The position numbers were made by a program, and so were the translations under genes. Under the pieces are notes generated by a model, which saw nothing but the letters and a program-made list of their open reading frames with translations, was not told the DNA's origin and did no database searches. Positions 29,320 through 51,951 of a stretch of DNA of 64,000 nt are shown piece by piece (the stretch's first letter is position 1; each line of letters opens with the position of its first letter). Source of the stretch: Bacteroides bouchesdurhonensis (GTDB taxonomy: Bacteria; Bacteroidota; Bacteroidia; Bacteroidales; Bacteroidaceae); contig NZ_LT707006.1 of assembly GCF_900155865.1 (NCBI RefSeq), positions 2,396,577-2,460,576 on the forward strand, given 5' to 3'.

Positions 29320-29411
29320 CAATGAAATGAGGTATTTTGAATAAAAGAGATAGGTGGTCGCAAATGGTCACCTATTTTTGGAGGTATCTAAGTGGTTGTT
29401 TCTTACTTTTG
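29320..29411 (+). promoter_or_regulatory. control module copy a (TGGTC direct repeat plus promoter)
   Basis: Box CAATGAAATG (29320), TGGTC at 29355-29359 and 29365-29369 (10-bp period, middle GCAAA), TTTG at 29377-29380, -7 TACTTTTG at 29404-29411 (perfect TAnnTTTG, spacer 23). Here the repeat is flanked by ATAGGTG...CACCTAT. No gene starts near it; the next gene, the ToxR-like regulator, begins 345 bases downstream. Confidence 0.7.
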
Positions 29412-29692
29412 TTTGACAAATATTCATGTTTAAGGATTTGGTTTCATAGATATGATTAAAATAATGTGTATTTACACCTTTGATAATAATGTTATTATAA
29501 AATAGTTCTTATTGAAATTAATCGATGTGAAGTCTCAAAGTGTTGCGGCTTGAAATAAAGCTATAGTAAAAAGTGAAATTAGCTTGTTTCTTAATTTACA
29601 TTATTGAATAGTTAAATACATTATTTGTATTGACTCTAATTTACTGAGTATGATTTATAATATCCGGTAAGTTGGGTTTTTGTTTGATAGTA

Positions 29693-29726
29693 TTTGAGTG
29701 AAATCAATTACTAAGTGTTATCTTTG
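29693..29726 (+). promoter_or_regulatory. promoter of the ToxR-like regulator gene
   Basis: -33 TTTG (29693-29696), 22-bp spacer, -7 TATCTTTG (29719-29726). The start codon follows 29 bases later. This promoter lacks the TGGTC repeat, so the regulator may have basal expression in addition to a possible long transcript from module a. Confidence 0.65.
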
Positions 29727-29755
29727 CGGTACAAATAGCGTAATTTTAGAACATT

Positions 29756-30799
29756 ATGAAACATACGAAAATTATTCTGTTATCTGTAATAATCTGTATA
29801 GGAGGGATTTTCTTCTTTAGTATCGGCAGAATTACTTATGAATCTAAGAAGTCTCAGACTAAGGAAAAGGCAAGAGAAGCATTTTTTAAGGCATTAGAAC
29901 AGGAATTAAAAGGTAGAAATTCTGATAGTAACAATTTGTTCTTTTTTGATATAAAACCGACTTTAAATGCAAATATTCCAGATTCTGTTTGTATTCAGGA
30001 TTCAGTTGGAAAACACTGGTATAGATTAGATCCTAAAAAGCATTTTATGAATATAACTGATGATGTAAATTTACGTTTTATGCATTCTATAACATTTGAT
30101 AAAAATCCGATTATTCTTGATTCATTAAATAATATTTGGAAGAAATATTTATTGAAATCTGATATTTCTCTTAAGTCTGCATTGTGTCTTTCAGTTACAG
30201 GCAGAGATGGTGAGATTAACTCAAAAATGACCTCTCATAGTGAATGGTGTAATTCTTATAATCTGATGTTTACTACTTATATAGGTTATGCCTGTGAAAT
30301 TGAGATAATAGGTTATCTTGATTATTCTTTGTGGCACATATGGCACATGATATACAAAGAAATTTTATTAGATTTACTGCTATATCTTGTTATGGTATAT
30401 GGTCTTTATAAGATTTCTATCATTATTATTATGAAGATAAAAGTGATGAGACAAAAGGAAATTATAATAGTACAGGGAGTAACCAATACTCCTGCTCGTT
30501 CTTATATGTTACATGATAAAATTATATTTTATGCAGAATTGCAAATAATAGAGAAGGAGGATGGGACACAAGAGAAACTTCAACATCAGACTAGTTTCTT
30601 ATTAGAGTTGTTTTTAAAGGCAAAAGATGATGGATATGTTTTAGAGGATAAAATTATTAAGGATAATTTGTGGCCTGACGGAAGTGGTAATCATGTTCGA
30701 CTTCATAAAGCTGTGGGACGACTACGTTCTTGCATTCATAAAATAGATTCTTCATTGGATATAAATAGGTGTGGAAGTGCATATCAATTACTCATATAG
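29756..30799 (+). CDS. transmembrane ToxR-like winged-helix regulator
   Basis: 347 aa. Membrane helix at residues about 7-25, a periplasmic domain (about 30-195) with two Cys (ALCLSV, EWCNSY) and no known fold, a second membrane helix (about 203-228), then a cytosolic C-terminal OmpR/ToxR-type winged helix (about 250-347) with LEDKIIKDNLWPDGSGNHVR, LHKAVGRLRSCIHKI and a terminal GSAYQLLI wing. There is no receiver or kinase domain, so it is a one-component membrane-bound activator. Its place at the head of the peptide locus and the 10-bp TGGTC direct repeats make it the best candidate to control them. Its ligand is unknown. Confidence 0.8.
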   Translation: MKHTKIILLSVIICIGGIFFFSIGRITYESKKSQTKEKAREAFFKALEQELKGRNSDSNNLFFFDIKPTLNANIPDSVCIQDSVGKHWYRLDPKKHFMNITDDVNLRFMHSITFDKNPIILDSLNNIWKKYLLKSDISLKSALCLSVTGRDGEINSKMTSHSEWCNSYNLMFTTYIGYACEIEIIGYLDYSLWHIWHMIYKEILLDLLLYLVMVYGLYKISIIIIMKIKVMRQKEIIIVQGVTNTPARSYMLHDKIIFYAELQIIEKEDGTQEKLQHQTSFLLELFLKAKDDGYVLEDKIIKDNLWPDGSGNHVRLHKAVGRLRSCIHKIDSSLDINRCGSAYQLLI

Positions 30800-30833
30800 T
30801 AATTTTTGTTTCATTCATCATGATAATAATAAT

Positions 30834-30924
30834 CGATGAAATCGCTATTTTTTTTCAAAAAAATAGCTGGTCCGAAATGGTCAGACTTTTTTCTTTGCAT
30901 TCTATTCTTTGTTTTTTATTTTTG
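30834..30924 (+). promoter_or_regulatory. control module copy b, upstream of NVEALA peptide 1
   Basis: CGATGAA box (30834), TGGTC at 30868-30872 and 30878-30882 in TGGTCCGAAATGGTCAG, -33 TTTG (30894-30897), 19-bp spacer, -7 TATTTTTG (30917-30924, perfect). The ATG at 30946 follows about 15 bases after the expected start site. The repeat ends 9 bases before the -33 box, an activator position. Confidence 0.8.
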
Positions 30925-30945
30925 CCCCATCATTTAATTTTATAG

Positions 30946-31188
30946 ATGAAAAATAATATGAAAAAACTGATTATTTTTATTATTTTCTTATGTGTTATTG
31001 CTGTTTGGACAACTAAAAGGTTTCACAAAGATGACATGAATCCATTAATTTTGAATAATGTGGAGGCTATAGCTAGTGATGAGAGTCCTAATATTGGGAG
31101 GTGTTATGGACAAGGCTCTATAGATTGTCCCGCGGGTAATCGTAAAGTTGAATATGTTGGTATTGGATACAGTCTTGAAATACAATAA
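30946..31188 (+). CDS. NVEALA-family exported peptide 1
   Basis: 80 aa (76 if the ATG at 30958 is used). Hydrophobic export signal (KKLIIFIIFLCVIAVW), then LNNVEAIA, the NVEALA motif of PF14055-type proteins, followed by a polar tail of about 37 residues with two Cys (RCYGQGSIDCPAG). The A-x-A at the end of the motif resembles a signal-peptidase site, so the tail is probably released or surface-exposed. Overlaps the start of the propeller gene, so the two are co-transcribed from module b. Confidence 0.85.
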   Translation: MKNNMKKLIIFIIFLCVIAVWTTKRFHKDDMNPLILNNVEAIASDESPNIGRCYGQGSIDCPAGNRKVEYVGIGYSLEIQ

Positions 31189-32233
31189 TATAAGTCTTTT
31201 ATTCCTTTTATTTTTAATTTCGTGTGGTACGAATAAGAAAGAATATGCAGAGAATGTATATCCTTATTCTAACTTTCCACAAGAAAAAGAAATTAAAGGA
31301 GAAGTCATAGAACTTGACTCTGTACTGCTTCGTTATCCATTCAGGATACATGTAGAGGGGGATAAGGTCATTATCATGGATTTACATGGTCCTGATTATT
31401 ATGGCCATCTATTTAAATATCCTAATTTTGAATATTTATGTTCCTTTGGAAAGCATGGTGACTCACCTACAGATATGCTTTCTATGGAAAATGTCCGGTT
31501 TGGTGAACATGCTGTGTGGACATTAGATGCAAATAAGAAAGAATTAACTAGGTTGGGGTTTTCTCCATCCTGTGATTCACTTCTTCGAGATGAAACGGTG
31601 ACATTGGATGGAGATTTATTAAGACCTCTTGAATTTGCTATATATAATGATACTACTTTCATTATTCCAGACTATTTAGGTGAAAAACGTTTATGTTGGG
31701 TTCATCGTAATGGAAGACTTATAAATAAGATAGGTGAAATACCGTCAGCTAATAAAGAGGCATTGCAAGATGCACGACCTGCTTTGGCTCAAGCATGGCG
31801 AAGTTTCTTGGATTATAATCCTAATAATGGCGTATTAGCAGCTGTTACTCAATTGGGAGAAGTCGTAGAAGTCTATAATTTAAAAGATACTACTCATATT
31901 GTTCGTATAGGTGAACATGGTGAACCTGAATTTCAAGTATCAGGTGGGTATGGAATACCTACAGGAATTATGGGATTTAGTGATGTACAAGTGACAGATA
32001 GTGCTATCTATACAGTATTTAGTGGTACTACTTTTAAAGAAATAGCAAGGAGTAGTGGTGCTTTGCCTAGTGGAGGAAAGTATATATATGTATTTACTCT
32101 TAAGGGAGAACCATTATGTAAATATATACTTGATCATTATATATCTGGTATTTGGGTTGATGAGATTAATAAAACAATAATCGCAACAGATGTAAATAAT
32201 GACCAACCAATAGTGAAATTTCGCTTTGGTTAA
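31154..32233 (+). CDS. TolB-like 6-bladed propeller lipoprotein
   Basis: 359 aa from the ATG at 31154; TTG codons at 31148 and 31175 are alternatives, the last giving the neatest lipoprotein signal (LLFLLFLISCGTNKKE, lipid Cys in ISC). The rest fits the TolB_like propeller family (PF15869): YPFRIHVEGDKVIIMDLHG, YLCSFGKHGDSPTDML, NNGVLAAVTQLGEVVEVYN, IYVFTLKGEPLCKYILD. Function of the family is unknown; binding of a peptide or sugar at the cell surface is plausible. The start lies inside NVEALA peptide 1. Confidence 0.85.
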   Translation: MLVLDTVLKYNNISLLFLLFLISCGTNKKEYAENVYPYSNFPQEKEIKGEVIELDSVLLRYPFRIHVEGDKVIIMDLHGPDYYGHLFKYPNFEYLCSFGKHGDSPTDMLSMENVRFGEHAVWTLDANKKELTRLGFSPSCDSLLRDETVTLDGDLLRPLEFAIYNDTTFIIPDYLGEKRLCWVHRNGRLINKIGEIPSANKEALQDARPALAQAWRSFLDYNPNNGVLAAVTQLGEVVEVYNLKDTTHIVRIGEHGEPEFQVSGGYGIPTGIMGFSDVQVTDSAIYTVFSGTTFKEIARSSGALPSGGKYIYVFTLKGEPLCKYILDHYISGIWVDEINKTIIATDVNNDQPIVKFRFG

Positions 32234-32271
32234 GAGTAGTAGATAATTAACTGGGTTTTTGAAAGGAGCAT

Positions 32272-32325
32272 AATGATGAGTCATGGGTGTTGCCGGATCT
32301 ATTTCACACTGTTGGCTCCTTTTTA
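32272..32325 (+). terminator. terminator after the first propeller gene
   Basis: Arms AAAGGAGC (32272-32279) and GCTCCTTT (32315-32322) pair perfectly across a long loop and are followed by TTT. Related in shape to the structure at 34834-34915. Confidence 0.6.
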
Positions 32326-32501
32326 AAGCATTGTAAATAACATGAAAATACTGATGTATAATGTTTGTCTTTTACATTAAAGTGATTGATAACTATTTAT
32401 ACATTCTAATTAAGAAAGTGGAATAAAAAAGGGTAGCTACGTGCTGCTTCCGGTGAAATGATATAAACGGAAACTTCATTGTTTAATTTAATTTTTTTTA
32501 T

Positions 32502-32771
32502 ATGAAACTCATATTAAAACTTACTTTTATAATAGGGCTGGCTCTATTTGCATTATTTAATGTATTTAATGCGAGAAATATTGATAGGATTTGTGATTTA
32601 ACTCTTTATAATGTTGAGTCATATGCAAATCCTGAAGATGAAAAAGTTTGTAAATGGAAAGTGATTGATTGTCCTGGAATTGGAACTGGAGATTATGAAG
32701 CATGTTTGGAAAATGGGGATGGTAATAATTGTTCCTGTGGTTCAGTAACAAGAGAATGTCCTAAAGACTAG
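32502..32771 (+). CDS. NVEALA-family exported peptide 2 (six Cys)
   Basis: 89 aa. N-terminal hydrophobic signal (KLTFIIGLALFALFNVF), then the variant motif LYNVESYA, and a 46-residue acidic tail with six Cys (EKVCKWKVIDC, YEACLENGDG, NNCSCGSVTRECPKD). The Cys density suggests disulfides in an exported product. A stem-loop separates it from the next propeller gene. No TGGTC control module lies directly upstream; the promoter was not identified. Confidence 0.8.
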   Translation: MKLILKLTFIIGLALFALFNVFNARNIDRICDLTLYNVESYANPEDEKVCKWKVIDCPGIGTGDYEACLENGDGNNCSCGSVTRECPKD

Positions 32772-32792
32772 GCAAGTTTGAAAGTCCTTATA

Positions 32793-32847
32793 AACATAGA
32801 AATATGATATGGAATATTAATGTTTGTATCATTATTTCTATGTTTTC
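32793..32847 (+). terminator. stem-loop between peptide 2 and its propeller gene
   Basis: AACATAGAAATATGATA (32793-32809) pairs with TATCATTATTTCTATGTT (32827-32844, one bulge), followed by TTC. It ends 19 bases before the propeller ATG. Likely a partial terminator or RNA-stability element that lets the peptide be made in excess over the lipoprotein. Confidence 0.65.
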
Positions 32848-32865
32848 TTAATTTAAAATTATATT

Positions 32866-33990
32866 ATGAAGATAAAATATTTCTTGTTATTGGTGGTTTT
32901 TGTAATGTCGTGTACTAATACTGAAACAGAGTTTACTTCTATTGTCGATGATAAATCTATAAAAATAGAAGAGGATAAAACATTAATGTCATCAGTTGTG
33001 AAAATTGACAATATTATTCCTCTTGAAACAACCGATTCTTGTTTGATAGGTCAGATTGATAAAATAGTAAAAAAGAATGGAAATATATATGTAAAATCAA
33101 CAAATAAATCTCTATTTTCTTTTTCAGAGACGGGTAAGTTTTTATGTAGCATAGGGAATTTGGGAATAGGTCCTGAAGAATATTCCATAATTTTGGATTT
33201 TGATGTAGATACAGAAAATGTTTATGTTTTGACTACTCAAAAGATACAGATCTATTCTTTATCTGGTAAATTTGTTAAGTCAATACCTTTAACATTTAAT
33301 GCTTCTGGTTTCCATGTTTTAGATGGTTGTATATTATTATTTGTTTTAGGTGATAATTACGTAATACATATTGTTGATTTAGATGGAAATACGATACAAA
33401 AAACATTAAAAAGAAATCAAGCTTTAAGGTTATGTAAGACTATTCCTTTTGTGAGTTATACTAATAAATATTTGTTGTTTGCTCAGGGACGCTCTAATGA
33501 TATATTAACATATGATGTTGAAAAAAAGAGTTTTGGTAATATGACTTACTTCTCATCTTCTGATAATTTGTCTATACAGGATGAGAACTCATTTTTAGAA
33601 TCTAATATTGGTAAAAGAATGAGACTTAATAATTATAAAACCTATTTTGATGGTCTCTCTTCTTCTGAAGAATATGTTTACTTTGCTTCAATTGATGATA
33701 ATAAAGTCGTTTTATGGATTAAAGATCTTACTTCGCAGAAAGTTAATGCATACTTATTTTCTTCTTTAGTAAATGATTTGACTTTTGTTAGTGCAGATTC
33801 TTTCTTTTATGATAATATAAAAAGTGAAAAATCTTTTTTGTCTTATGTGATGCCTTATCAAATAGTCGAAGGATTGGAAAAAAATATAAGCTATGCTAAT
33901 ACTGATTATTATTTAGAAATGCAAAAAGTAATAGAAAGTTTAGATGTTGAAGAAGCTAACCCTATTATTATCGAATATAATTTTAAATGA
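32866..33990 (+). CDS. 6-bladed beta-propeller lipoprotein (DUF5128-like)
   Basis: 374 aa with a lipoprotein signal (FLLLVVFVMSCTNTE, lipid Cys16). The N-terminal strand KIDNIIPLETTDSCLIGQID and the repeats IYSLSGKFVKSI, GNLGIGPEEYS and HIVDLDGNTIQKTL are typical of the Bacteroidetes 6-bladed propeller family. It ends NPIIIEYNFK, overlapping the start of the thioredoxin-like gene by 4 bases. Partner of peptide 2. Confidence 0.85.
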   Translation: MKIKYFLLLVVFVMSCTNTETEFTSIVDDKSIKIEEDKTLMSSVVKIDNIIPLETTDSCLIGQIDKIVKKNGNIYVKSTNKSLFSFSETGKFLCSIGNLGIGPEEYSIILDFDVDTENVYVLTTQKIQIYSLSGKFVKSIPLTFNASGFHVLDGCILLFVLGDNYVIHIVDLDGNTIQKTLKRNQALRLCKTIPFVSYTNKYLLFAQGRSNDILTYDVEKKSFGNMTYFSSSDNLSIQDENSFLESNIGKRMRLNNYKTYFDGLSSSEEYVYFASIDDNKVVLWIKDLTSQKVNAYLFSSLVNDLTFVSADSFFYDNIKSEKSFLSYVMPYQIVEGLEKNISYANTDYYLEMQKVIESLDVEEANPIIIEYNFK

Positions 33991-34658: not shown

Positions 34659-34749
34659 CGATGAAATGGGGGATTTTTAGATAAAAAGCGTTTGGTCCGA
34701 ATTGGTCAGGCTTATTCTTTGGTATTCGTAATTTTATCCCCTAAATTTG
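34659..34749 (+). promoter_or_regulatory. control module copy c (orphan)
   Basis: CGATGAAATG (34659-34668), TGGTC at 34693-34697 and 34703-34707 (middle CGAAT, followed by AG), -33 TTTG (34718-34721), 20-bp spacer, -7 TAAATTTG (34742-34749, perfect). No ORF follows; a structured terminator-like element lies at 34834-34915. Confidence 0.8.
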
Positions 34750-34756
34750 CATTCAT

Positions 34757-35088: not shown

Positions 35089-35179
35089 CGATGAAAAGGA
35101 GATTTTCATCTATAAATATGGTTGGTCCGAAATGGTCAGCAACATTATTTTGCATTTTCGTTTTTATCCCCTACTTTTA
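35089..35179 (+). promoter_or_regulatory. control module copy d
   Basis: CGATGAAAAG (35089), TGGTCCGAAATGGTCAG (35123-35139), -33 TTTG (35149-35152), 19-bp spacer, -7 TACTTTTA (35172-35179, last base off consensus). The repeat is flanked by GTTG...CAAC. The next gene begins about 370 bases downstream at 35550. Confidence 0.8.
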
Positions 35180-38664: not shown

Positions 38665-40580
38665 AAAGAATGACATATTATAATGGCAAATTGCTAATGA
38701 TATTTGTATATATCATTGGTTTGCTGACTACCTGTGATTCGTCGGAGCGCATTGAGGTATTAAGAAATGATATATATCCGTCTCGTCATATATTGGTTCC
38801 TTTGGCTCCGACTTTCTCGGTTGAAGTGGCTGGAGATACGTTGTATCATCAATATTTGCATGTGTTTAAAGGAAAGGATTTTCCATTAATGGGTATTTTG
38901 TATGTGGATGGTAAAGGATATCGTTTCATGGGAGGAGACTCATTGCGTATCCGGGCTCTAGCTCCTTTGGCAGGAGATAGCTGTGGATGGAAAGGAAAAT
39001 ATTTCTTTTTGCGTCCAGAAGAAGGTTGGAATAAGGTGGGATATGATGATAGCAAGTGGCAGGAAGGGAGTGCTGCTTTTGGAACTGAAGGACTTTGGTA
39101 TGCTACGAATACTATTTGGAGTGTTGATAATATTTATCTTCGTAGGCATGTAACCTTAAATAAAGAGGCGTTGGGCAACCACAAATTGTATATTCGGTTT
39201 CTATGCGATGATATTGCCACTATTTTCTGCAATGGTGATGAAGTGGTACATTCCAACTATACAAACAAGTCAGTTGGGTGTAGGCAACTACCTGATACGA
39301 TTGTAGATAAAATAAAAGAAGGAGATAATTTGCTTGCTGCTCATTGTTATAATATTTCGAGTAATGCGTTGCTGGATTATGGATTGTATATAGAGAATAA
39401 GGAGTATATAGATGTTGATACTGCATTCTTTAAATCTGTAGATATACAGGCAACTCAAACACATTATTCTTTTCAATGTGGGGATGTGGAGCTTCAACTT
39501 AGTTTTGTTGCACCTTCCTTATTACAGGACCAGGAGTATATGGGATGTCCGGTGGGATTTCTTTCTTATCGGATAGTGTCTACGGACGGTCAGCAACATG
39601 ATGTTGATATTTCGTTCGATATGGATATGGAATGGATGTTTGATCGAGTGAAAATAAAAGAGTCTGTAGAAAAAGATTGGAGAATAATACAGGGAGACAG
39701 TCTGTATGTGGCGGTAAAAGCGGAAGATGTACAGTCTGTATGTAAGGATGGTCGTATTATCCTGACGCAGAAGAATATGATGCGTAAAGGTGCGGATAGT
39801 GGTGTAGTGCTTTTGGGATATGAGGAAGGAGAGGTTTTACAATATTTTGGTGAGAATTTACCTTATTATTGGCAGAGAAATAAAAATGCGAGTATAAAAG
39901 AGGTCTTGAGGAATATAGGGGACAATTATCAGACATTGCAAAGGAAGTGTGATGAAACAGATATGTATTACTCGCAGAAGTTATCTCTGGAAAAGGGTAA
40001 AATAAAGGCTGAGAAGATGTTTCCATATTATCGAAACTTTCTCGCGACGCGTAGACTTTCGGTGGCTCCGGATGGTGAATTGTTATGCTATAGTAATATA
40101 GTGGGTAGAGTAAGAGATGCTTTTGATAGTTTTCCTTATCTGATGTTTTATGAACGTATGGATTGGATGAAAGGCACATTGAAACCTGTTTTTGATTTTT
40201 GTGAGAATGGTCATTGGGTTAAGCAATTTCCTCCTTTTGATATTGGATTCTTTCCGATTGCTATTCATCAGGAGAGTGTCAATGATTATGGGATCGAAAT
40301 GGCAACCAATATGTTGATGATGACTTTGGCTATAGTGAAGACGGATGGAACTTTTGATTATGCGGAGAAACATTGGAGACATATATCTCAATGGGGAAAT
40401 TATTTGGAAAAAATGGTGAAGAAACAGCAAGAACTTATGGCTGAGCAACGGAAAGATTCTGTTAAACAGCAAGAAACTTCTGCAGTGGAACAGATACCTG
40501 CAGCACATAAAGAAGAGGTTAAGGCTATTTTAGGTTTAAAAGCGTATCAGGAACTGATAGAATTACAAAAGCAACGATGA
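38655..40580 (+). CDS. GtaA-like glutaminase family lipoprotein (DUF5127/DUF4965), C-terminally short
   Basis: 641 aa with a lipoprotein-like signal (MIFVYIIGLLTTCDSSE). An N-terminal jelly-roll segment (WNKVGYDDSKWQEGSAAFGT) as in Bacteroides glutaminases is followed by a DUF5127-like region (QATQTHYSFQCGDVELQLSF) and a DUF4965-like region (CYSNIVGRVRDAFDSFPYLM, PPFDIGFFPIA). Family members such as Aspergillus GtaA are about 700-850 residues and end in DUF1793; here the end is replaced by a Gln/Lys/Glu-rich helix (about 595-641). The next gene overlaps by 4 bases. Activity uncertain. Confidence 0.75.
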   Translation: MEIKRMTYYNGKLLMIFVYIIGLLTTCDSSERIEVLRNDIYPSRHILVPLAPTFSVEVAGDTLYHQYLHVFKGKDFPLMGILYVDGKGYRFMGGDSLRIRALAPLAGDSCGWKGKYFFLRPEEGWNKVGYDDSKWQEGSAAFGTEGLWYATNTIWSVDNIYLRRHVTLNKEALGNHKLYIRFLCDDIATIFCNGDEVVHSNYTNKSVGCRQLPDTIVDKIKEGDNLLAAHCYNISSNALLDYGLYIENKEYIDVDTAFFKSVDIQATQTHYSFQCGDVELQLSFVAPSLLQDQEYMGCPVGFLSYRIVSTDGQQHDVDISFDMDMEWMFDRVKIKESVEKDWRIIQGDSLYVAVKAEDVQSVCKDGRIILTQKNMMRKGADSGVVLLGYEEGEVLQYFGENLPYYWQRNKNASIKEVLRNIGDNYQTLQRKCDETDMYYSQKLSLEKGKIKAEKMFPYYRNFLATRRLSVAPDGELLCYSNIVGRVRDAFDSFPYLMFYERMDWMKGTLKPVFDFCENGHWVKQFPPFDIGFFPIAIHQESVNDYGIEMATNMLMMTLAIVKTDGTFDYAEKHWRHISQWGNYLEKMVKKQQELMAEQRKDSVKQQETSAVEQIPAAHKEEVKAILGLKAYQELIELQKQR

Positions 40581-41461
40581 ATATAGGAATGAATCGCATA
40601 AAGAAGTGGCTAAATACTGTCCTGAATATTGTATTCTGGGGGATTTGTTCTTGTGTTATATTGTTTCTGCTTCAACTTTTTTGTTTTGCATCCTTCAAGA
40701 TTCCTTCGGATTCAATGGAGCCTACTTTGCTAGATGGTGATTATATTCTAGTAAATAAGTTGGTGCATGGAGCCCGATTATTTGATGTGTTTGCTGCATT
40801 GAGAAATGAGGAGGTACCAATTTACCGGCTTCCGGGTTTTGGAGATTTGAAGCGTAATGATGTGATAGTCTTTAACTTCCCTTACCGGAAAGAATGGAGT
40901 TGCATTCGAATGGACATCATGCGTTTTTTTGTGAAGCGTTGCATTGCACTTCCCGGAGATACACTGGAAATAAGAAACGGACTGTATGCAATACGTGGTT
41001 GTAATGAGATATTGGGAAATAGAGAGGCTCAAATCGAACTTGCCGATTTGGAGAATCCCGAGGAATGGGGAATTGTGACAAAGACTTTCCCTAATGACAA
41101 GCATTTGGACTGGAATATCCGGGAATTTGGACCACTGCCCATTCCTAAAAGAGGACAATCTGTATTACTTAATGATACTAGTTATCTTCTGTATAGGCAA
41201 TTGATTGGCTGGGAACAGAAGAAAAAGTTGCGTTTCAAGAATGGGAACGTTTTATTGGGTGATAGTGTAGTACATCAATATCGGTTTATGAAGAACTATT
41301 ATTTTGTATCTGGTGATAAGATGGCTAACTCTAAGGATTCTCGTTATTGGGGGATGTTACCGGAAGAGTATATTGTCGGAAAAGTGACTCGTATTTGGTA
41401 CTCAAAGAATAAGAATACAGATAAAACGCGTTGGGAACGGATAATGAAGAGAATTGAGTAA
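40577..41461 (+). CDS. signal peptidase I (S26 family), locus-specific
   Basis: 294 aa. One N-terminal membrane helix, then KIPSDSMEPTLLDGDYILVN with catalytic Ser46, and FFVKRCIALPGDTLEI with general base Lys120; the late box VSGDKMANSKDSRYWG is also present. A complete Ser/Lys signal peptidase. Its place at the end of a translationally coupled operon with transglutaminase and glutaminase genes, rather than a housekeeping context, suggests a dedicated processing enzyme, with the NVEALA precursors as obvious candidates. Confidence 0.9.
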   Translation: MNIGMNRIKKWLNTVLNIVFWGICSCVILFLLQLFCFASFKIPSDSMEPTLLDGDYILVNKLVHGARLFDVFAALRNEEVPIYRLPGFGDLKRNDVIVFNFPYRKEWSCIRMDIMRFFVKRCIALPGDTLEIRNGLYAIRGCNEILGNREAQIELADLENPEEWGIVTKTFPNDKHLDWNIREFGPLPIPKRGQSVLLNDTSYLLYRQLIGWEQKKKLRFKNGNVLLGDSVVHQYRFMKNYYFVSGDKMANSKDSRYWGMLPEEYIVGKVTRIWYSKNKNTDKTRWERIMKRIE

Positions 41462-43277: not shown

Positions 43278-43368
43278 TGATCAAAAGGGCATTAAGGAAT
43301 AAAAATATTCTTGGTCCGAAATAGTCAGCCAATTTTTTTTGTAATTCAGCTTTAATAGCCTACTTTCG
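43278..43368 (+). promoter_or_regulatory. control module copy e, upstream of the DUF1573/thioredoxin-like gene
   Basis: TGATCAAAAG box (43278), TGGTC (43312-43316) and TAGTC (43322-43326) in TGGTCCGAAATAGTCAG, -33 TTTG (43338-43341), 19-bp spacer, -7 TACTTTCG (43361-43368, one mismatch). Flanked by TTGG...CCAA followed by a T tract. Confidence 0.75.
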
Positions 43369-43497
43369 CCACCGATAAAAATATAGGGATTGTTGAGGTT
43401 TGAATCTTGAAAAGAGATGGAACTAATATGGGATTGTATTTAGGAGATCATTGCTAATAATGAACTGAAAATGCATTTAATGATAATGAAACAAATG

Positions 43498-44361
43498 ATG
43501 AAATATAGTATTCTATTATTGTTATTCTTTTTATTTTCTTGTAGTGATAGTAAAAAGAAAAATATAGCATCCATATTGAAGGAATGGGAGCATAAGGAAA
43601 TATTGTTTCCCTGTAATCCGATATTCTCGATACAAGGAAAAGATACGGTTGCTTATCCGAAGGGAGGTGAGTATAAAGTATTCTCTTATGTCGATTCAAT
43701 GGGATGTATAAGCTGTAAGCTAAAATTGGATGAATGGCAGAAGTTTATAACCGATGTTGATTCTTTATGTCCTAATACTGTACAGTTTTTATTTTACTTT
43801 AATCCCAAAAAACGAAGCGAAATTTGTCGAATTTTGCAATTTGATAAGTTTAAATATCCGGTTTGTATAGATGAACAGGATTCTATTAATAAATTAAATC
43901 ATTTTTCTTCGGAAACAATGTTTCAGACTTTTTTGTTAGATAGGGAGAATAAAGTGATTGCTGTTGGCAATCCGATACATAATTCAAAAGTGAAAGAGCT
44001 TTATTTAAGTGTTATTTTAGGCAAGGAATCTTCTAATGAGTCAGATAACCAGCCTCAGACAACTGCTAAGTTATCTGAGGCTCAATTGAATCTTGGAGAA
44101 TTTCCATGGAAAGAGAAACAAAGACAGGATATTCTGATCACAAATACGGGAGATAATCCCTTAGCGATAAATGAAGTGGTTACGTCTTGTGGATGTACGA
44201 CGGTGGAATATGATAAACAGCCTGTTTTGCCTGGTAAATCGATACCAATTAAAGTATACTATCAAGCGGGATATCCGGAGCATTTTAATAAAACAATTAC
44301 GGTGCACTGTAATGCAAAGAATGCTCCATTTATGATAAAGATTAGTGGAGACGCTAAATAA
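43498..44361 (+). CDS. thioredoxin-like lipoprotein with C-terminal DUF1573 domain
   Basis: 287 aa from the ATG at 43498, giving a clean lipoprotein signal (SILLLLFFLFSCSDSKKK). Residues about 25-180 are TlpA/thioredoxin-like with DSMGCISCKLKLDEWQKF (C70-x-x-C73), and about 195-287 are a DUF1573 domain (FLG-type strand, then INEVVTSCGCTTVEYDKQPV and LPGKSIPIKVYYQAG). DUF1573 is an Ig-like domain of Bacteroidetes envelope proteins. This is the intact model for three decayed relatives at 48352, 49937 and 51412. Confidence 0.8.
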   Translation: MKYSILLLLFFLFSCSDSKKKNIASILKEWEHKEILFPCNPIFSIQGKDTVAYPKGGEYKVFSYVDSMGCISCKLKLDEWQKFITDVDSLCPNTVQFLFYFNPKKRSEICRILQFDKFKYPVCIDEQDSINKLNHFSSETMFQTFLLDRENKVIAVGNPIHNSKVKELYLSVILGKESSNESDNQPQTTAKLSEAQLNLGEFPWKEKQRQDILITNTGDNPLAINEVVTSCGCTTVEYDKQPVLPGKSIPIKVYYQAGYPEHFNKTITVHCNAKNAPFMIKISGDAK

Positions 44362-46431: not shown

Positions 46432-46504
46432 GGGAAATTATTGTTTCTTAATAATCCAATATATTCAACACAAGGAAATATGGTTATTTGTCCAATGTGG
46501 GGTA
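46432..46504. repeat. 73-bp exact direct repeat, copy 1
   Basis: 46432-46504 is identical to 50012-50084. It encodes part of the thioredoxin-like N-terminus (KLLFLNNPIYSTQGNMV). The copies are 3.58 kb apart in the same orientation and bracket one whole cassette, so recombination between them could delete or duplicate it. Confidence 0.85.
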
Positions 46505-46759
46505 GACTATCTTAATTTGTTTAATGATCAGCTAATATTATGGTATTAGTATAAGCTGAAAGAGAATTATAATTATGTTAAAAAGGAACAAGGTGATGAC
46601 TGTTAATTTTGCCAGATTAATGGCATTATCTGCTCCTAAATACCGAAAAAGGAGATGCCCCAAGATAGGAATAGTATTGAATTGTAGCAAATCTATTTTG
46701 CTTTCGCTGAAATGATAAATGCGGATTGATTATTTTATTATTAAGTAAAAAGTAGAAAA
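46505..46759. other. intergenic stretch upstream of peptide 3
   Basis: No gene recognised. A promoter for the NVEALA gene at 46760 must lie here, but no perfect -7 TAnnTTTG and no TGGTC direct repeat is visible. Confidence 0.5.
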
Positions 46760-47101
46760 ATGAAAAAGTTTGTTTTTATCTCTATTGTAGCAGTGGTAGC
46801 TTTAATCATGGGATATAATGTTTATATAAGTCATGGGATAAATTGTTTATCAGATATAGTATTGGCTAACGTTGAAGCATTGGCGAATAGTGAAAGTGGA
46901 AGTGATAAAACAACCTGGCAAGAAGGAGACAAAACCATTGTTTCAACATCATCACCTGGTTGGACATTCGATCTTAAATTGAATGTTTGGTTATTTGAAG
47001 GAAAAGTTTCAAACAGCACGCCTCCGTCGATAGAAACTGTGAAAATAAAATGCTGTAGACTTAAGGGTCCTTTGGCTAGTTGTTCTTACGAAGAGTGCTA
47101 A
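46760..47101 (+). CDS. NVEALA-family exported peptide 3
   Basis: 113 aa. Signal FVFISIVAVVALIMGYNVYI, then the canonical LANVEALA motif (residues about 35-42) and a tail of about 70 residues ending KIKCCRLKGPLASCSYEEC with four Cys close together. The most typical NVEALA protein in the window. Followed by a perfect stem-loop and a propeller gene 68 bases downstream. Confidence 0.85.
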   Translation: MKKFVFISIVAVVALIMGYNVYISHGINCLSDIVLANVEALANSESGSDKTTWQEGDKTIVSTSSPGWTFDLKLNVWLFEGKVSNSTPPSIETVKIKCCRLKGPLASCSYEEC

Positions 47102-47112
47102 ATTAGCTAACA

Positions 47113-47153
47113 GAATTGAATGTGGGTATCATAAAGTACCCCACACTCAATTC
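47113..47153 (+). terminator. stem-loop between peptide 3 and its propeller gene
   Basis: GAATTGAATGTGGGTA (47113-47128) pairs with TACCCCACACTCAATTC (47137-47153), one bulged base, loop of 8. It is followed by ATTATTATC rather than a run of T, so it may attenuate or protect the peptide mRNA end rather than fully terminate. Confidence 0.65.
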
Positions 47154-47168
47154 ATTATTATCATAAAG

Positions 47169-48308
47169 ATGAAAAAATATATTTTTATTTTGGCAGCATT
47201 TGCTTTGATTATTTGTGCGTGCTCTTCTCCTCAAAGAGGAATGGATTCTCCTGTTTGTACTGTTAAATTAGATGTAAGTAATAGTGCGGAACTAGATTTT
47301 AATAAATGTTTTGACTCAGTAAGATATGTCGCATTGGAGACAACCAAGGAAGCACTTATTGGCGAAATTACTAAAATATATGTTACTAATGAACATATAA
47401 TTATCTTTGATCAAAAATCGATGGAAATTTTTTTATTTGGTATTGATGGGAAATTTACTCGGAAGATTGGCAAGAAAGGTGAGGGTCCGGATGAATATAT
47501 GTTTATAAATGATATTCAATATGATAAAGAAAATATGTTAATATTTGCGCATGAAAGATTTAGAAATCGCATATACACTTATGATTTGTCTGGGAATTTG
47601 GTAGATAAGACTCAGAAATCATTAATATCATTCAATTCTTTTTTTAAAACAGAAGAAGGTTTCTGGGTGTATAGCTGTTTTAGTGATGAGAACAAAGAAC
47701 ATTATAATCTGACACTCTTAACTTCGGATATGCAAAGTGTTAGGAAACAATTTTTCCCTCAGAAAGAATTTGTAAATGTGACATTTTCACCAACTTTTAT
47801 GAATGATGAAAATAGAAGGCTATTTTTTTATTATCCATCAAGTAATATCATCTATGAAATCTCAGGTACAGATGTTATTCCTTATCTTCAAGCAGATTTT
47901 GGTGATAAGACAATGCCATATGATAAAATTATTGAAATGGAAAACAAAGAAGAGTATGACAAATTGCTTTCCGGTAAAGCTTATTTGGGAGATATAAATA
48001 GGTGTTTTGCAAATCAAGATAGAATATTTTTCTCGTTTATGGAAAGCGGATTAGGCATAGTACATTCTTATAATTGTTTCTATAATATTAAATCGAAAGA
48101 AGGGCATGTGTTTAATAATCCTTTTATGTTATCGGTAAAATATCCTGTTTCGACACAACTATTGTATTCTACAGATACTATGTTGGTATATCCGGTTTAT
48201 CCATCTATATTTACTGATGATAGTTTGGCAGAATTGAGTAAGTCTCTGTCTACTGATATACAATTTGATTCTAATGTAATTTTGGCAATTTGTTCTTTAA
48301 AAGAGTAG
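47169..48308 (+). CDS. 6-bladed beta-propeller lipoprotein (DUF5128-like)
   Basis: 379 aa, lipoprotein signal (IFILAAFALIICACSSPQ). Typical segments: DSVRYVALETTKEALIGEIT, GIDGKFTRKIGKKGEGPDEY, MFINDIQYDKENMLIFAHER and GYNCFYNIKS-like blades near the end. Same family as the proteins at 32866, 41849 and 50240. Partner of peptide 3. Ligand unknown. Confidence 0.88.
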   Translation: MKKYIFILAAFALIICACSSPQRGMDSPVCTVKLDVSNSAELDFNKCFDSVRYVALETTKEALIGEITKIYVTNEHIIIFDQKSMEIFLFGIDGKFTRKIGKKGEGPDEYMFINDIQYDKENMLIFAHERFRNRIYTYDLSGNLVDKTQKSLISFNSFFKTEEGFWVYSCFSDENKEHYNLTLLTSDMQSVRKQFFPQKEFVNVTFSPTFMNDENRRLFFYYPSSNIIYEISGTDVIPYLQADFGDKTMPYDKIIEMENKEEYDKLLSGKAYLGDINRCFANQDRIFFSFMESGLGIVHSYNCFYNIKSKEGHVFNNPFMLSVKYPVSTQLLYSTDTMLVYPVYPSIFTDDSLAELSKSLSTDIQFDSNVILAICSLKE

Positions 48309-48351
48309 TAATTTTTTTGAATCATAAATGTGACTACTATATTTTGATAAA

Positions 48352-48944
48352 ATGAGAAATTGCTATTGGAATTCTAGGAAGATACTGATCCTTCTGATAT
48401 TAATATTGATGGTGCCTATATATTGTATTATTGATAAAAAAGGCGAAGATAATATAACAGTATTAGTGGTTAATGGCTGGATTGGACGAGAAATTAAGAT
48501 ACCAAATAATTTTCAGCGCAATTTACTGAGGGCAGATACAGGAATGAAAGTGGATTCAGAATTGATTAATTTAGAATATAGAATATTATTATACGTGGCT
48601 TCTGTTGGTTGTATGACTTGTAAATTGCACTTGCAGAAATGGGGTAAATTGATAAGGGAATTTGAGTAGGCATCTTTAAATAAACTTTCTTTTTTATTTT
48701 TTTTCCATCAGAAGAATAAAAAAGAGGTACGTTTACTATTAAAACGTGAGAATTTTAATTACCCTGTTATTATAGATGTTAAAAATGAAATAAATCAATT
48801 AAATAATTTTTCAACACAATCGGAATTTCAATGTTTTTTATTGGATAAAAACAATAAAGTTTTATTAGTAGGCAATCCAGTAAAAAATATAAAAATAAGG
48901 AATTTGTATTTGAAAACTATATTGAGTAGGGAAATGAAGGCTAG
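48352..48944 (+). pseudogene. thioredoxin-like/DUF1573 gene with amber codon, cut by an ISAs1 relic
   Basis: 48352-48669 encodes a membrane anchor (ILILLILILMVPIYCII) and ASVGCMTCKLHLQKWGKLI (CxxC). TAG at 48667-48669 follows REFE; the same frame goes on (FLFFFHQKNKKEVRLLLKRE, FLLDKNNKVLLVGNPVKNIK) and aligns with the intact relative at 43498. The homology stops at 48944, where CAGGG of the IS relic begins, so the DUF1573 part is gone. Two independent lesions. Confidence 0.75.
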
Positions 48945-49555
48945 CAGGGATGAGCAACAAAGTATGTTAACCAGAGCTTTGTTTCCTTATCATTCTTTAA
49001 AATAGAGAGTGCCATTTTCGTTACTGCCGAAAAATTTCTAGCCGCATTCTTGACCTTCTTGCTATCGTCTTCCCTAAAGGTAACATCCAACTGCCAATGT
49101 AGATTATTTTCAATAGACCAGTGTTGCCTGATAGCCGACGAGATTTCTTCCGGGTTTGTATTATCCAATGAAGTTATATAATACCTGTTTTCTTGAGTAC
49201 GTTCTCCCGTCGACATTATTATTCTTTCAGATTTCACACCTATAATTGACTTCAATCCTACAAATTTATTTTTGAACATGCTCTCCATGATAGAACCGTA
49301 AGTGACTACAGTACATATTCTTTTTTCAAGCCTACCATGTCCTGTACTTTCGGAGATATGCCGGGTAACTCTATTAAAGATAACATCTCTGTTTTCATAA
49401 CCATCAATGATTTCATTACTTTTATCGTCCTCCCACGTTTCCGCACCACAAATAACACCCACTAGACTGACGAACATGATAGTACCCACACTATGATGTT
49501 TACAACGATCAATGCGATGATCATGAATACCAATACAAAAAGTCGCTAAATCCAT
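48941..49555 (-). pseudogene. ISAs1-family transposase with internal deletion
   Basis: 204 codons. The N-terminal part (DHRIDRCKHHSVGTIMFVSL, VICGAETWED) is joined to the C-terminal part (ESTGHGRLEKRICTVVTYGS, IRQHWSIENNLHWQLDVTFR, EDDSKKVKNAARNFSAV). ISAs1 transposases are normally about 370 residues; about 160 residues of the catalytic core between ENRDVIFNRVTRH and ISESTGHG are missing. Not active by itself. Confidence 0.8.
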
Positions 49556-49629
49556 ATTTTTCTCATAAAGGTAAATATTAATAAGTTAGAAAAAGAATTG
49601 TAGAGAAGATTTATAATGCGTACGCCCTG
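48945..49629. mobile_element. ISAs1-family relic element
   Basis: Bounded by CAGGG (48945-48949) and CCCTG (49625-49629) in inverted orientation, the terminal bases usual for ISAs1 elements. Interrupts the thioredoxin-like gene. No clear target duplication is seen. About 685 bp against a normal 1.3 kb, owing to the internal deletion. Confidence 0.6.
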
Positions 49630-49744
49630 TAATTTAATTAACTAGAAAAATAAAGAAACCTTATTCGGTGGAAGAACTATAAAAAGATGTTTGATTGTAA
49701 AGAGACTAAATGTTATTATGTCTTATGTTGATAAAATAAATAGT

Positions 49745-49835
49745 CATCAAGGGGGTATTTTTATAAAAAAAACACCTTTGGTCCGAAATGGTCAGCCAAA
49801 ATACTTTGCGATTCCGCATTTATTGCCTACTTTTA
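49745..49835 (+). promoter_or_regulatory. control module copy f
   Basis: TGGTCCGAAATGGTCAG at 49779-49795, -33 TTTG (49805-49808), 19-bp spacer, -7 TACTTTTA (49828-49835). The upstream box is degenerate (CATCAAGGGG). The repeat is flanked by TTTGG...CCAAA. It drives the chimeric fragment at 49937 and the propeller at 50240. Confidence 0.78.
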
Positions 49836-49936
49836 TCAACGAAATGATACAGAAATCATAAGAATCTGAATCTATAAGAAGAGGAAGAGAATAAAAACAT
49901 ATAGGGCAGTGACGAAACAAATGATGAATATATATT

Positions 49937-50179
49937 ATGTTATTTCTTTTATTCTCTTACAGAGAAAGTAGAAGGGAGAATAAGCACCTATATTGGAAGA
50001 ATGTTAGTATTGGGAAATTATTGTTTCTTAATAATCCAATATATTCAACACAAGGAAATATGGTTATTTGTCCAATGTGGGGTATGGGCGGTGACTGTTA
50101 TATAGCTGGGCTTATTCGTTATGATGATTGTAGATTTAGTGGCTATATGCATGACAAATGTCTCACTCCTTGTGATTAA
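49937..50179 (+). pseudogene. chimeric fragment: thioredoxin-like N-terminus fused to a Cys-rich peptide tail
   Basis: 80-codon frame. The first half (KHLYWKNVSIGKLLFLNNPI, YSTQGN) matches the EWEHKEILFPCNPIFSIQGK region of the intact gene at 43498. The second half (PMWGMGGDCYIAGLIRYDDC, RFSGYMHDKCLTPCD) has four Cys spaced like an NVEALA tail and no thioredoxin homology. It looks like a deletion joining two cassette genes; the signal peptide is out of frame upstream. Could be translated, but export is doubtful. Confidence 0.5.
50012..50084. repeat. 73-bp exact direct repeat, copy 2
   Basis: Identical to 46432-46504, same orientation. See that entry for the consequence. Confidence 0.85.
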
Positions 50180-50197
50180 ATAGTTTGATTATTGTAT

Positions 50198-50219
50198 GAG
50201 GCTGTGTAACCACAGCCTC
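50198..50219 (+). terminator. stem-loop before the 50240 propeller gene
   Basis: GAGGCTGTG-TAAC-CACAGCCTC, a perfect 9-bp stem with a 4-base loop, 21 bases before the propeller ATG. Same position as the stem-loops at 32793 and 47113. Confidence 0.65.
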
Positions 50220-50239
50220 TCTTGAAAAATAAAAAAAAT

Positions 50240-51415
50240 ATGAAGAAAATAAGTATAATAATATTGCCGATTATAGTTTGTGCATGTATGGCAAATAATA
50301 GAAATGAAATACCTGATGGTATCGAGATAATACCGGTAGAAGTAAATAAGTTATCTGAAAATACTTCTTCTTTTTTAGAAAAAATAGAGCTTGTACCTTT
50401 AGAAACGAACGATTCTTCTTTGCTTTTTAAGTGTAATAAAGTCATTTATGATAAAGTAACGAACATATATGCCATTTATACTAGTGATCAACTTGTATAT
50501 ACATTTTCAGGAAATGGAACTTATATTGATAATTCAAAGAGGATGAAGGGGCAAGGAGCTGAAGATTACAGTATGGTATTGGATATTAAATTAAATCCTT
50601 ACTTAAAAGGCATTGATATGTTAAATCCTTATGGAACAATATATACTTATAGTCCGACATTTGAACTTTTGTCTAAAAGAAAATATAAATCAGAGTTTCC
50701 TGTAGATTATTTGATGGCACTAGATTCTAATAATTATGTTTTTATCCATCCTTTTATGTGGACCGATCAAGAAGTTACATTTATAAATCTAGAAGATCAG
50801 CAGGTGACCAATGCTAACTATAAAGGAACTATTTCTGAAAATACGATGGCACATGATTGTTTTTATAATGTAGGTGATTGTTTTTATTTTGTACCGTTGG
50901 GACTTAATTATTATTTTTATCAGATAAATACTGAAGAAAAGAAACTTGTGCCGATTATGTATCTTGATTTTGGGGATTATGAAGTAAAAACGAATGGTTT
51001 GCCAGGACGAGCAACAGGAGAGAGAACTAACTTGGATATGGATAAAAGTGAAATATCAAGAGAGGTAAGAGAACGGTATCAGTTTTTGAAAAAATCCAAT
51101 AATATTTTACCTTTACTTAAATTTTTTAATGATGATTATGTGTATGTCTATTTGGCTAAAACTGATAGAGGTTATGGTAGTCATTTCATTTATAACAGAA
51201 AGAAAAAAGAAGGATATCTATTGAAAGGAGAAAAGCCTTTTTTAATGTATCCTAGTTTTGCTATAGTAGATAACGTATTACTCGCTATTTGTCGTCAGCC
51301 TGATTTGGTTCCCAGATTTGTAGATCGTAATTTTATGTCTCCAGAAGAAATACGAAAAATGGAACAATTGAAAGAAGATGATAATCCTGTAATATTGAAA
51401 TACTATTTGAAATGA
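50240..51415 (+). CDS. 6-bladed beta-propeller lipoprotein (DUF5128-like)
   Basis: 391 aa from the ATG at 50240 (a TTG at 50222 would add 6 residues). Lipoprotein signal ISIIILPIIVCACMANN. Family segments: FLEKIELVPLETNDSSLLFK, YTFSGNGTYIDNSKRMKGQG, FLKKSNNILPLLKFFNDDYV and the terminal EDDNPVILKYYLK. The TGA overlaps the ATG of a thioredoxin-like remnant (ATGA), so the cassette order propeller then thioredoxin is kept here too. Confidence 0.87.
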   Translation: MKKISIIILPIIVCACMANNRNEIPDGIEIIPVEVNKLSENTSSFLEKIELVPLETNDSSLLFKCNKVIYDKVTNIYAIYTSDQLVYTFSGNGTYIDNSKRMKGQGAEDYSMVLDIKLNPYLKGIDMLNPYGTIYTYSPTFELLSKRKYKSEFPVDYLMALDSNNYVFIHPFMWTDQEVTFINLEDQQVTNANYKGTISENTMAHDCFYNVGDCFYFVPLGLNYYFYQINTEEKKLVPIMYLDFGDYEVKTNGLPGRATGERTNLDMDKSEISREVRERYQFLKKSNNILPLLKFFNDDYVYVYLAKTDRGYGSHFIYNRKKKEGYLLKGEKPFLMYPSFAIVDNVLLAICRQPDLVPRFVDRNFMSPEEIRKMEQLKEDDNPVILKYYLK

Positions 51416-51696
51416 TAATACGTTTTATGAGTTTGCTAATTACTGTTATTTTGTTGTTATCTTGCAAAGAATCTAACAGGATAGGGTAACTCGCTTAATT
51501 AATGAATGGAAAAACTATTCATTTTCCTGATAATATGTACCTTACGTCATATGGTAATGATTCGGTTCAAATGAGGTTAGGAAAAGAATCATCTTACTAT
51601 ACTATTTTAACTGAACATTTTGATAAAACCGTGACAATCTATTGTAATGCAAAAGACTCTTCCTTGCATTTAAAGGTTACAGGCAATGCAAAGTAA
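51412..51696 (+). pseudogene. thioredoxin-like/DUF1573 gene, collapsed by deletion and frameshift
   Basis: 51412-51489 encodes a lipoprotein signal (FMSLLITVILLLSCKESNRI) and stops at TAA. In another frame 51502-51696 reads NGKTIHFPDNMYLTSYGNDS (the N-terminal strand of the family), then jumps to HFDKTVTIYCNAKDSSLHLK and VTGNAK, which match the last 25 residues of the DUF1573 protein at 43498 (FNKTITVHCNAKNAPFMIKI). The CxxC domain and most of DUF1573 are deleted. Confidence 0.7.
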
Positions 51697-51859
51697 TGGC
51701 TGATAAAACGGTATTATGATAAAATGCTATGAATTTCATTTTGACCATTGTGCTTGGGGCAAATGACGGCGTTATCAATCACGAAGAAAGAAGAGCTAAT
51801 ATTTATATTATAGGCTTTCTTGTGGGAACGATAAAACGAAGAAAGGATTGTAAAATTTT

Positions 51860-51951
51860 CGATGAAATGGACCATTTTAGAAAAAAAACAAGGTTGGTCA
51901 TAAATAGTCAGCAAAATTTGCTTGTTTCTAATTACAAATTTGTTACCTTTA
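51860..51951 (+). promoter_or_regulatory. control module copy g, upstream of the RND export operon
   Basis: CGATGAAATG (51860-51869), TGGTC (51895-51899) and TAGTC (51905-51909) followed by AG, -33 TTTG (51917-51920), -7 TACCTTTA (51944-51951, spacer 23). The repeat half-sites and the box are kept although the middle is ATAAA. The HlyD ATG lies 40 bases downstream. It links exporter and peptide cassettes. Confidence 0.7.

Follow-up and report, generated by a model that had tools for sequence, protein, structure and literature searches.

A candidate operator at a fixed distance from the -7 element may connect seven promoter-like modules of Bacteroides bouchesdurhonensis with a predicted membrane-anchored regulator

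The window analyzed here, a stretch of 64,000 nucleotides (nt) from Bacteroides bouchesdurhonensis at C1:2396577-2460576, contains seven copies of a module of about 91 bp between positions 29320 and 51951. What are these copies for, and which protein might read them? A preliminary description took them for the control elements of a regulon, and the comparison across the genus supports this interpretation as a whole. The layout of the modules, their spacing, the family-wide 10-bp repeat, the neighborhood of peptide genes and the predicted fold of the regulator were all obtained by computation. With a probability of roughly 0.8, as judged from the sequence, the modules are promoters of the sigma-ABfr type that carry, at a fixed distance of 32 bp from the -7 element, an operator for P0001, the membrane-anchored product of the gene at 29756.

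Direct reading and alignment place all seven modules on the + strand at the positions described previously. Each contains an A/T tract, a direct repeat, a -33-like TTTG and a -7 element. Module 1 (29320..29411) is composed of the box CAATGAAATG, the repeat TGGTCGCAAATGGTCAC at 29355 and the -7 element TACTTTTG. Module 2 (30834..30924), the putative promoter of an NVEALA peptide gene, has the box CGATGAAATC, the repeat at 30868 and the -7 element TATTTTTG. In modules 3 (34659..34749), 4 (35089..35179), 5 (43278..43368), 6 (49745..49835) and 7 (51860..51951), the repeat starts at 34693, 35123, 43312, 49779 and 51895, and the -7 element reads TAAATTTG, TACTTTTA, TACTTTCG, TACTTTTA and TACCTTTA, respectively. 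The distance from the start of the box to the end of the -7 element is, as described, 92 bp in modules 1 and 7 and 91 bp in the other five. The letters are less uniform than had been claimed. TGGTC-N5-TGGTC is strict in five of the seven copies, with TAGTC as the second half-site of modules 5 and 7; the string TGGTCCGAAATGGTCAG, given as the usual form of the repeat, is exact in modules 2, 4 and 6 and differs in the other four; the box is clear in five modules and degenerate in modules 5 and 6; and the -7 pattern TAnnTTT(G/A) does not hold in module 5.

The sharpest regularity had been overlooked: the end of the repeat is separated from the -7 element by exactly 32 bp in 7/7 modules. The -7 score is 8-10 of 10 in all seven (the -33 element was judged by eye). 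The sigma-ABfr promoters of Bacteroides have TTTG at -33 and TAnnTTTG at -7, according to an excerpt of PMC7366714. The modules appear to possess both features, sharing the type of the -7 element and a TTTG-like -33 element, and add to them a putative upstream operator 32 bp from the -7 element, along with a CGATGAAAT box in this genome. When up to two mismatches are allowed, the core TGGTCNNAAATGGTCA occurs seven times in the window, every time at a module, and is expected by chance 0.51 times on average and at most 3 times (100 dinucleotide shuffles). A scan of the window for exact 7/7 repeats of period 10 gave 0 sites, because the repeats in the window match at 6/7 or fewer positions. In the entire 5.3 Mb genome the perfect core is found at the seven window sites and at one site before a DUF1573-like gene, as befits a regulon motif and not noise.

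The candidate reader of the repeat is the product of the gene at 29756..30799 (+). P0001 is predicted to consist of a transmembrane helix, a periplasmic domain (residues ~27-191), a second transmembrane helix and a C-terminal winged helix (249-346). That the latter is of the OmpR/PhoB/ToxR type, as proposed earlier, is borne out by profile and fold matches to ToxR, CadC, PhoB and KdpE. In a profile search of the PDB, the P0001 family matches ToxR with E 1.9e-8 and CadC with 7.3e-8, the PhoB-type and KdpE matches being in the range of ~2e-8 to 7e-8; Trans_reg_C is matched in 63 of 70 family members at E values up to 0.1. In the AlphaFold2 model of P0001 (predicted local distance difference test score, pLDDT, 89.4), a long helix at the N terminus is followed by an alpha/beta domain, another long helix and, at the C terminus, the winged helix. 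The alpha/beta domain is flanked by the two long helices, predicted at residues 2-55 and 192-236, in which hydrophobic segments were recognized by eye. In Foldseek, ToxR-DNA ranks first (E 4.5e-3, prob 1.00). The best structural matches of the winged helix are CadC and ToxR, the VIA-align Z scores being 13.4 for CadC, 12.8 for ToxR-DNA (root-mean-square deviation 2.2, 96 aligned) and 11.6 for PhoB-pho box. The model thus predicts a membrane protein with two transmembrane helices, a periplasmic domain and a C-terminal winged helix. No receiver domain was found among the Pfam families listed (25 of 35 families, 70 members), and the N terminus of P0001 is modeled as a long helix. The sensor domain, which may still adopt a known fold, has no clear match: among PDB sequences up to E 5 its only match is a SNARE (0.21), the best Foldseek E value is 0.13, and the best structure alignment (KinD sensor, Z 5.4, 95 aligned, root-mean-square deviation 3.6) is within noise.

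Within the genus, a search with the single protein P0001 finds homologues in 41 of 119 genomes; a profile search at 1e-8 gives matches in 133 of 149, many of the weaker matches listed covering the C-terminal part only. The single protein matches 4 of 151 genomes in a family-wide sample, two of them from this genus, and an order-wide profile search of 295 genomes at 1e-20 matches two, the source genome of the window and one other. The regulator of a metagenome-assembled genome (MAG) of Bacteroides sp. is 64% identical to P0001. A set of 78 distinct homologues was collected (alignment A3 leaves out four of 74 regulators: L086, L168, L182 and L047). An NVEALA-type open reading frame (ORF) lies up to 700 nt downstream of 61 of the 78, at a median of 151 nt from the stop. 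Beyond the motif, each of the 61 peptides contains two or more cysteines, and DCP is present in 59. The source genome has nine NVEALA (PF14055) matches.

If the winged helix is of the predicted type, the promoters of the peptide genes are expected to contain direct repeats whose period is close to one turn of the helix. An exact 7-mer repeat of period 10 was found within 160 nt before the peptide ATG in 32 of the 61 loci. The chance level is 1.05 loci on average and 5 at most (20 shuffles), and none of the other periods from 6 to 21 rises above 5/61. The control regions contain such a repeat in 4/78 cases before the regulator start and in 0/61 within coding sequence. The repeat is present in 19 of 35 loci that had not been inspected beforehand; once proteins at least 80% identical to inspected ones or to each other are removed, it is present in 13 of 23 fresh loci, where other periods reach at most 2. 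The 10-bp-period direct repeat described upstream of the -33 element thus tends to recur, with differing letters, in the promoters beside 61 homologous regulators.

Among the 53 loci with a -7 element in reach, 39 have 6 or 7 of 7 positions matching (shuffled mean 3.6). In the 40 loci with at least 5/7 matching, the distance from the end of the second half-site to the -7 element is 32 bp in 25 cases and 33 bp in 10; the gap was searched over 31-33 bp, after which shifts of up to 2 were allowed. When a gap of 27-36 bp is allowed, 21/53 loci have 32 bp and 10/53 have 33 bp. The half-site consensus is N-K-G-T-C-A-G, with positions 1, 2 and 5 varying most. A reverse-complement copy of the whole direct repeat was also seen, 3' of the regulator and ~30-53 bp upstream of the repeat, in L089, L098, L163 and L140 (16-17 of 17 letters); in the first three, which are distant family members, the inverted copy matches at 17/17 letters (letter counts only).

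The reach of this rule was examined at its borders. At three loci of another family (G576), inspection by eye of ~500-600 nt downstream found neither an NVEALA ORF nor a clear 10-bp repeat, and the rule is therefore established for the genus only. One locus in another genus of the family, L044, combines an NVEALA ORF with an exact repeat of period 10. The exact core that occurs in another genus in G057 was rejected as a module, there being no -7 element.

Does the repeat belong to this particular regulator? Among the close orthologues, the window's own included, a GGTC- or TGTCC-type repeat is present in 10 of 11 readable loci, the remaining one (L087) having GGTTAG. Beside the two paralogues in the same genome, at C1:184855 and C1:3691901, the letters are different: L046 has TAGATAG/TGGATAG and L048 has TTGTTAG/TTGTTAG (by eye), neither contains TGGTC, and both repeats end 32 bp before the -7 element. 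Near-matches of the repeat are followed by a -7 element at 31-33 bp in 4 of 8 cases in genomes with an orthologue, the other four being an MnmA-like coding repeat, and in 0 of 20 testable cases in genomes without one (one near-match each). The distance between sites tracks that between regulators (Mantel r 0.40 for the winged helix and 0.43 for the sensor, p 0.0002, n 37).

The genes behind the modules can now be described. The presumed adjacent target is the NVEALA peptide gene P0002 (30946..31188, +; PF14055, E 3.1e-10), and the end of it is overlapped by the gene of a TolB-like propeller protein (31148..32233, +; PF15869, E 2.1e-73). The curated PF14055 cut-off of 27 bits is exceeded by the 30946 gene (40.1 bits) and by a second gene at 46760 (36.9 bits). 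The repeat of module 5 is 159 bp from the ORF of a DUF1573 protein with a thioredoxin-like N-terminal part (43471..44361, +; PF07610, E 1.4e-27; weak NCBIfam thiol-disulfide match). The repeat of module 7 is 96 bp from the start of an HlyD-like RND efflux adaptor (51991..53097, +), which is followed by an ACR_tran gene at 53131. Module 1 is ~400 bp 5' of the regulator gene. An element resembling a -7 box, TATCTTTG (29719..29726, +), was recognized by eye ~30 nt before the P0001 start, and similar elements were seen, also by eye, directly before the regulator start in orthologous loci. Module 1 is therefore not needed as the promoter of the regulator; autoregulation is possible.

Outside the window, the full layout is found at C1:5222779 before the DUF1573-like gene and, with imperfect cores, before three glycosyltransferase-like ORFs: at C1:3056480 and C1:5068346, where the ORF is shortened to 75 and 73 amino acids, and at C1:5060629, where it is intact (242 amino acids, PF04488). 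A weaker repeat with the -7-like CATTTTTG at 31 bp lies 185 bp 5' of the NVEALA gene at C1:4382838. Among the relatives, G248 has modules before DUF1573, glycosyltransferase and RND adaptor genes as well, and G200 has five sites, all at exactly 32 bp, before NVEALA-like peptides and (by eye) lipoproteins. The module 1 repeat recurs 394 bp 5' of a regulator gene in L209 and ~1.7 kb 5' of the regulator in L116, here with a 30-bp gap. The NVEALA promoters next to the regulators are the putative constant target.

Combining these results, it is possible to outline how the system might work. The regulator would reside in the inner membrane, with its periplasmic domain sensing a signal and its C-terminal winged helix reading the repeat. 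The operator would be formed by two 7-bp half-sites (NKGTCAG) spaced exactly 10 bp, or one helical turn, apart. Two winged-helix domains could then dock head to tail on one face of the DNA just upstream of RNA polymerase, where they would most likely activate transcription. We infer the binding by the adjacent regulator, the activation and the sensing of a signal. The first target would be the adjacent operon of the NVEALA peptide and the TolB-like propeller; in this lineage the putative operator also precedes DUF1573/thioredoxin-like genes, glycosyltransferase-like genes and an RND exporter. The system would belong to a large family of regulator-peptide pairs that occurs chiefly in this genus and whose repeats differ from one regulator to the next.

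Several observations weigh against this interpretation. P0001 by itself has no Pfam match at 0.01, and at 0.1 its sole match is DUF2130 (0.054); a Foldseek search of the PDB with P0001 gives nothing below E 0.001. The repeat is poor in 14 of the 53 scored loci, and 8 more could not be scored. Two copies in G248 have a distance of 30 and 31 bp, not 32. The core alone is unspecific, with 39 matches in the genome (1 mismatch, loose core) versus 52 for the reversed control. Of these 39 matches, 30 were scored for the -7 element, and three of the other nine were read directly. A -7 score of at least 7/10 exactly 32 bp after the repeat was obtained for nine of the 30, namely all eight perfect cores and L022, the remaining 21 scoring at most 6. 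Thus the core together with a -7 element at 32 bp is specific, unlike the core by itself. Common descent of neighboring genes accounts for much of the covariation between site and regulator: the partial Mantel correlation of the site is 0.05 (p 0.26) with the recognition helix and 0.12 (p 0.07) with the winged helix when the sensor is accounted for, and 0.21 (p 0.009) with the sensor given the winged helix. Covariation between half-site and recognition helix was accordingly rejected, as it is not significant once the sensor or the rest of the winged helix is taken into account. The correlations show the co-divergence of neighboring repeat and regulator and do not extend to base-by-residue recognition.

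Other difficulties concern the targets and the parts of the module around the repeat. Seventeen of the 78 regulators have no peptide ORF in reach. Three modules in the window have no obvious intact target: module 3 has no ORF of at least 45 amino acids within 600 bp, module 4 is 427 bp away from a fragment of a propeller gene, and module 6 precedes a degenerate 80-amino acid ORF, by eye a degenerate relative of the 43471 gene. The RND exporter has a module before its adaptor here, but its module is kept only in G248, that is, in 1 of 10 other orthologue-bearing genomes and 1 of 11 adaptor loci; the nine other genomes with an adaptor lack it, and the adaptor search in G159 gave no match. RND regulation as a conserved feature was thus rejected outside the closest relative, and since the site is otherwise not kept, the RND link is probably a recent addition. 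The CGATGAAAT box is left unexplained by a regulator reading the repeat. Searched as CGATGAAATSGNNNTTTTT, it has 10 matches in the genome versus 3 for the reversed control, eight of them at module-type promoters, some of which adjoin two paralogous regulators with other repeats, and two inside coding genes. Being common to loci with differing repeats, the box is therefore outside the regulator's code. Finally, a minority of the copies also fold like terminators, with a strong hairpin and a T-rich run.

This last observation leads to the rival proposal that the modules terminate transcription of the genes 5' of them, by means of a hairpin that the repeat forms with its flanks and that is followed by a T run. 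Folds of -13 to -16 kcal/mol are found for the copies at 29355, L198:1896, L124, L129, L123, L055:1501, L054 and L033, which amount to one of the seven window copies and a minority of 26 copies; several such copies follow a regulator gene, others do not. Module 1 has a predicted 13-bp hairpin followed by a T tract, and in L082 the perfect hairpin ACCGATGAAATCGGT precedes a T-rich run in the box. The copies also fold somewhat better with their own flanks than with swapped ones (-10.5 vs -9.7, permutation p 0.035, in 26 hand-chosen copies of the TGGTC group), although an earlier, looser flank test on 41 sites gave p 0.056. The other six copies in the window have weak folds (-5.1 to -7.9 kcal/mol), and a terminator has no need of a -7 element at exactly 32 bp or of a 10-bp repeat varying with the regulator. 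As a general explanation of the modules, the terminator is quite improbable. The proposal may hold additionally for a minority, in that some modules may also end an upstream transcript; the CGATGAAAT box as a terminator hairpin fits L082 and was rejected for most copies.

It is also unlikely that the modules are promoters whose repeat is bound by some other factor than the candidate P0001, be it a soluble winged-helix protein or a response regulator. The whole OmpR/PhoB class typically binds direct repeats spaced by about one helical turn, and the repeat shows no significant covariation with the recognition helix. Nevertheless, among the loci tested, only those from genomes with a P0001 orthologue have a repeat with a -7 element at 31-33 bp, and the repeat adjoins the regulator gene in the 10 readable orthologous loci mentioned above and differs beside both own-genome paralogues. 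Less probable still is that the copies are debris of duplication or of mobile elements, promoters having been copied with paralogous clusters under no common regulator. The cluster is indeed rich in duplicated and degenerate ORFs (the 73-bp exact repeat 46432/50012 and the transposase-like remnant at 48941-49555 being examples), and of the three glycosyltransferase-like ORFs that follow a module, two are shortened (75 and 73 amino acids). However, the flanks vary while the repeat and the 32-bp spacing persist, the targets come from unrelated families (peptide, DUF1573, glycosyltransferase, RND), and the same layout in other letters recurs in other species, next to regulators with 20-35% identity. 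A promoter with an operator of P0001 is therefore preferred here.

Among known systems, P0001 as predicted resembles ToxR, CadC and TcpP, which are one-component regulators of the inner membrane with a periplasmic sensor and an OmpR-type winged helix. ToxR-type proteins have a cytoplasmic winged helix at the N terminus, one transmembrane segment and a periplasmic C-terminal domain. The order in P0001 (transmembrane helix, periplasmic domain, transmembrane helix, C-terminal winged helix) is the reverse of this, and P0001 is therefore regarded as ToxR-like in its working and is not classed as a member. Unlike ToxR, it has a sensor with no clear structural match, a half-site NKGTCAG and an adjacent NVEALA peptide gene. 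The response regulators PhoB and OmpR likewise combine a winged helix with tandem direct repeats upstream of the promoter, but no receiver domain was found in P0001, and the period of the module repeat is 10 bp, whereas that of the pho box is 11 bp. In an excerpt of PMC8517210, the box proposed for ToxR is TNAAA-N5-TNAAA, which has the same 10-bp period as the module repeat. Repeats of a period and place that would suit binding by a ToxR-like regulator were found at the candidate promoters. The available part of PMC10269533 reports that membrane-bound DNA-binding (transmembrane) transcription regulators are enriched in Bacteroidia, and that ~72% of those in Bacteroides are hybrids with two-component domains, from which P0001, having no such domains, differs; NVEALA peptides are not mentioned in that part.

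Some further observations were made in the course of the comparison. Window positions 46432-46504 are an exact 73-bp duplicate of 50012-50084, and a 120-nt repeat (80%) connects 36404 and 46199; this region contains degenerate genes of the propeller and DUF1573 types, and the transposase-like remnant occupies 48941-49555. In L207 (L207:1697-2425 and L207:2498-2737), a module is followed by a PF04488 glycosyltransferase gene and then by a small ORF with the GG-leader-like stretch STLKDKEMNALRGG, for which no Pfam match was found; three paralogous loci carry the module. The Bacteroides sp. MAG has four tandem regulator copies, one of them broken, at L209:4001-8863, with modules at 7414 and 8933. 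In L239 (G149), the RND adaptor promoter has a repeat TTGTCAGTTTTTGTCAG that starts 141 bp 5' of the adaptor and lies 33 bp before TACTTTTG; this TTGTCAG repeat is independent, and the genome has different regulators of the family. On the reverse strand of L210 and L212 (G576), 3' of distant regulator homologues of the other family, there are repeated elements of the CCCGATGAAAT/ATTTCATCGGG type that by eye resemble the CGATGAAAT box. The 21-bp arrays TGGTCNGAAATGGTCAG in G159, G162, G232, G236, G238 and G251 were considered as operator arrays and rejected, as they sit in an MnmA-like coding gene (named by eye). In that gene (L108:1650-1770, L109-L113), the copy number of the 21-bp repeat TGGTCNGAAATGGTCAGACA, which stands beside GTCGATGAAAAGGGGAATTTTAT, differs between species; the likeness of this repeat and of GTCGATGAAAAGGGGAATTTTAT to the promoter repeat and box is apparently coincidental.

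What, then, might the regulator sense? A tentative and rather doubtful proposal is that the signal is the NVEALA peptide itself, secreted, carrying two cysteines and cut from its leader at the motif: the periplasmic domain would detect it, and the regulator would then activate the peptide operon through a private repeat. A signal peptidase S26-like gene (PF10502) lies at 40577-41461 within the peptide cluster, and its product is a candidate processing enzyme for the NVEALA peptides. The distance between peptides tracks that between regulators (r 0.34-0.62); the partial correlation of the peptide core is 0.19 with the sensor and 0.12 with the winged helix (n 47), and this small excess for the sensor does not prove a pairing of ligand and receptor domain.

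A search of the open-access literature (subscription papers lay outside it) gave no match for NVEALA, and its matches for PF14055 appear to concern malaria or enzyme models. The accessible part of PMC10352776 does not mention propeller, DUF1573 or TolB, and no description of the family of regulator-peptide pairs was found in the open-access literature searched, as far as its text was available. What appears to be new is this family of membrane regulators paired with peptides, whose putative operators change with the regulator. The NVEALA genes in the genomes of this genus thereby gain a candidate regulator. The candidate operator rule, two NKGTCAG-like half-sites 10 bp apart and 32-33 bp before the -7 element, could serve to predict regulons from sequence, and the differences in the repeat between paralogous pairs form a natural series on the insulation of one-component membrane regulators. 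If the peptide is indeed the signal, a genome with several pairs would possess as many peptide channels insulated from one another. These would be the Gram-negative equivalent of the peptide pheromone circuits of Gram-positive bacteria, built on one protein and not on a two-component pair. The system thus bears on whether peptide signaling exists in these gut bacteria.

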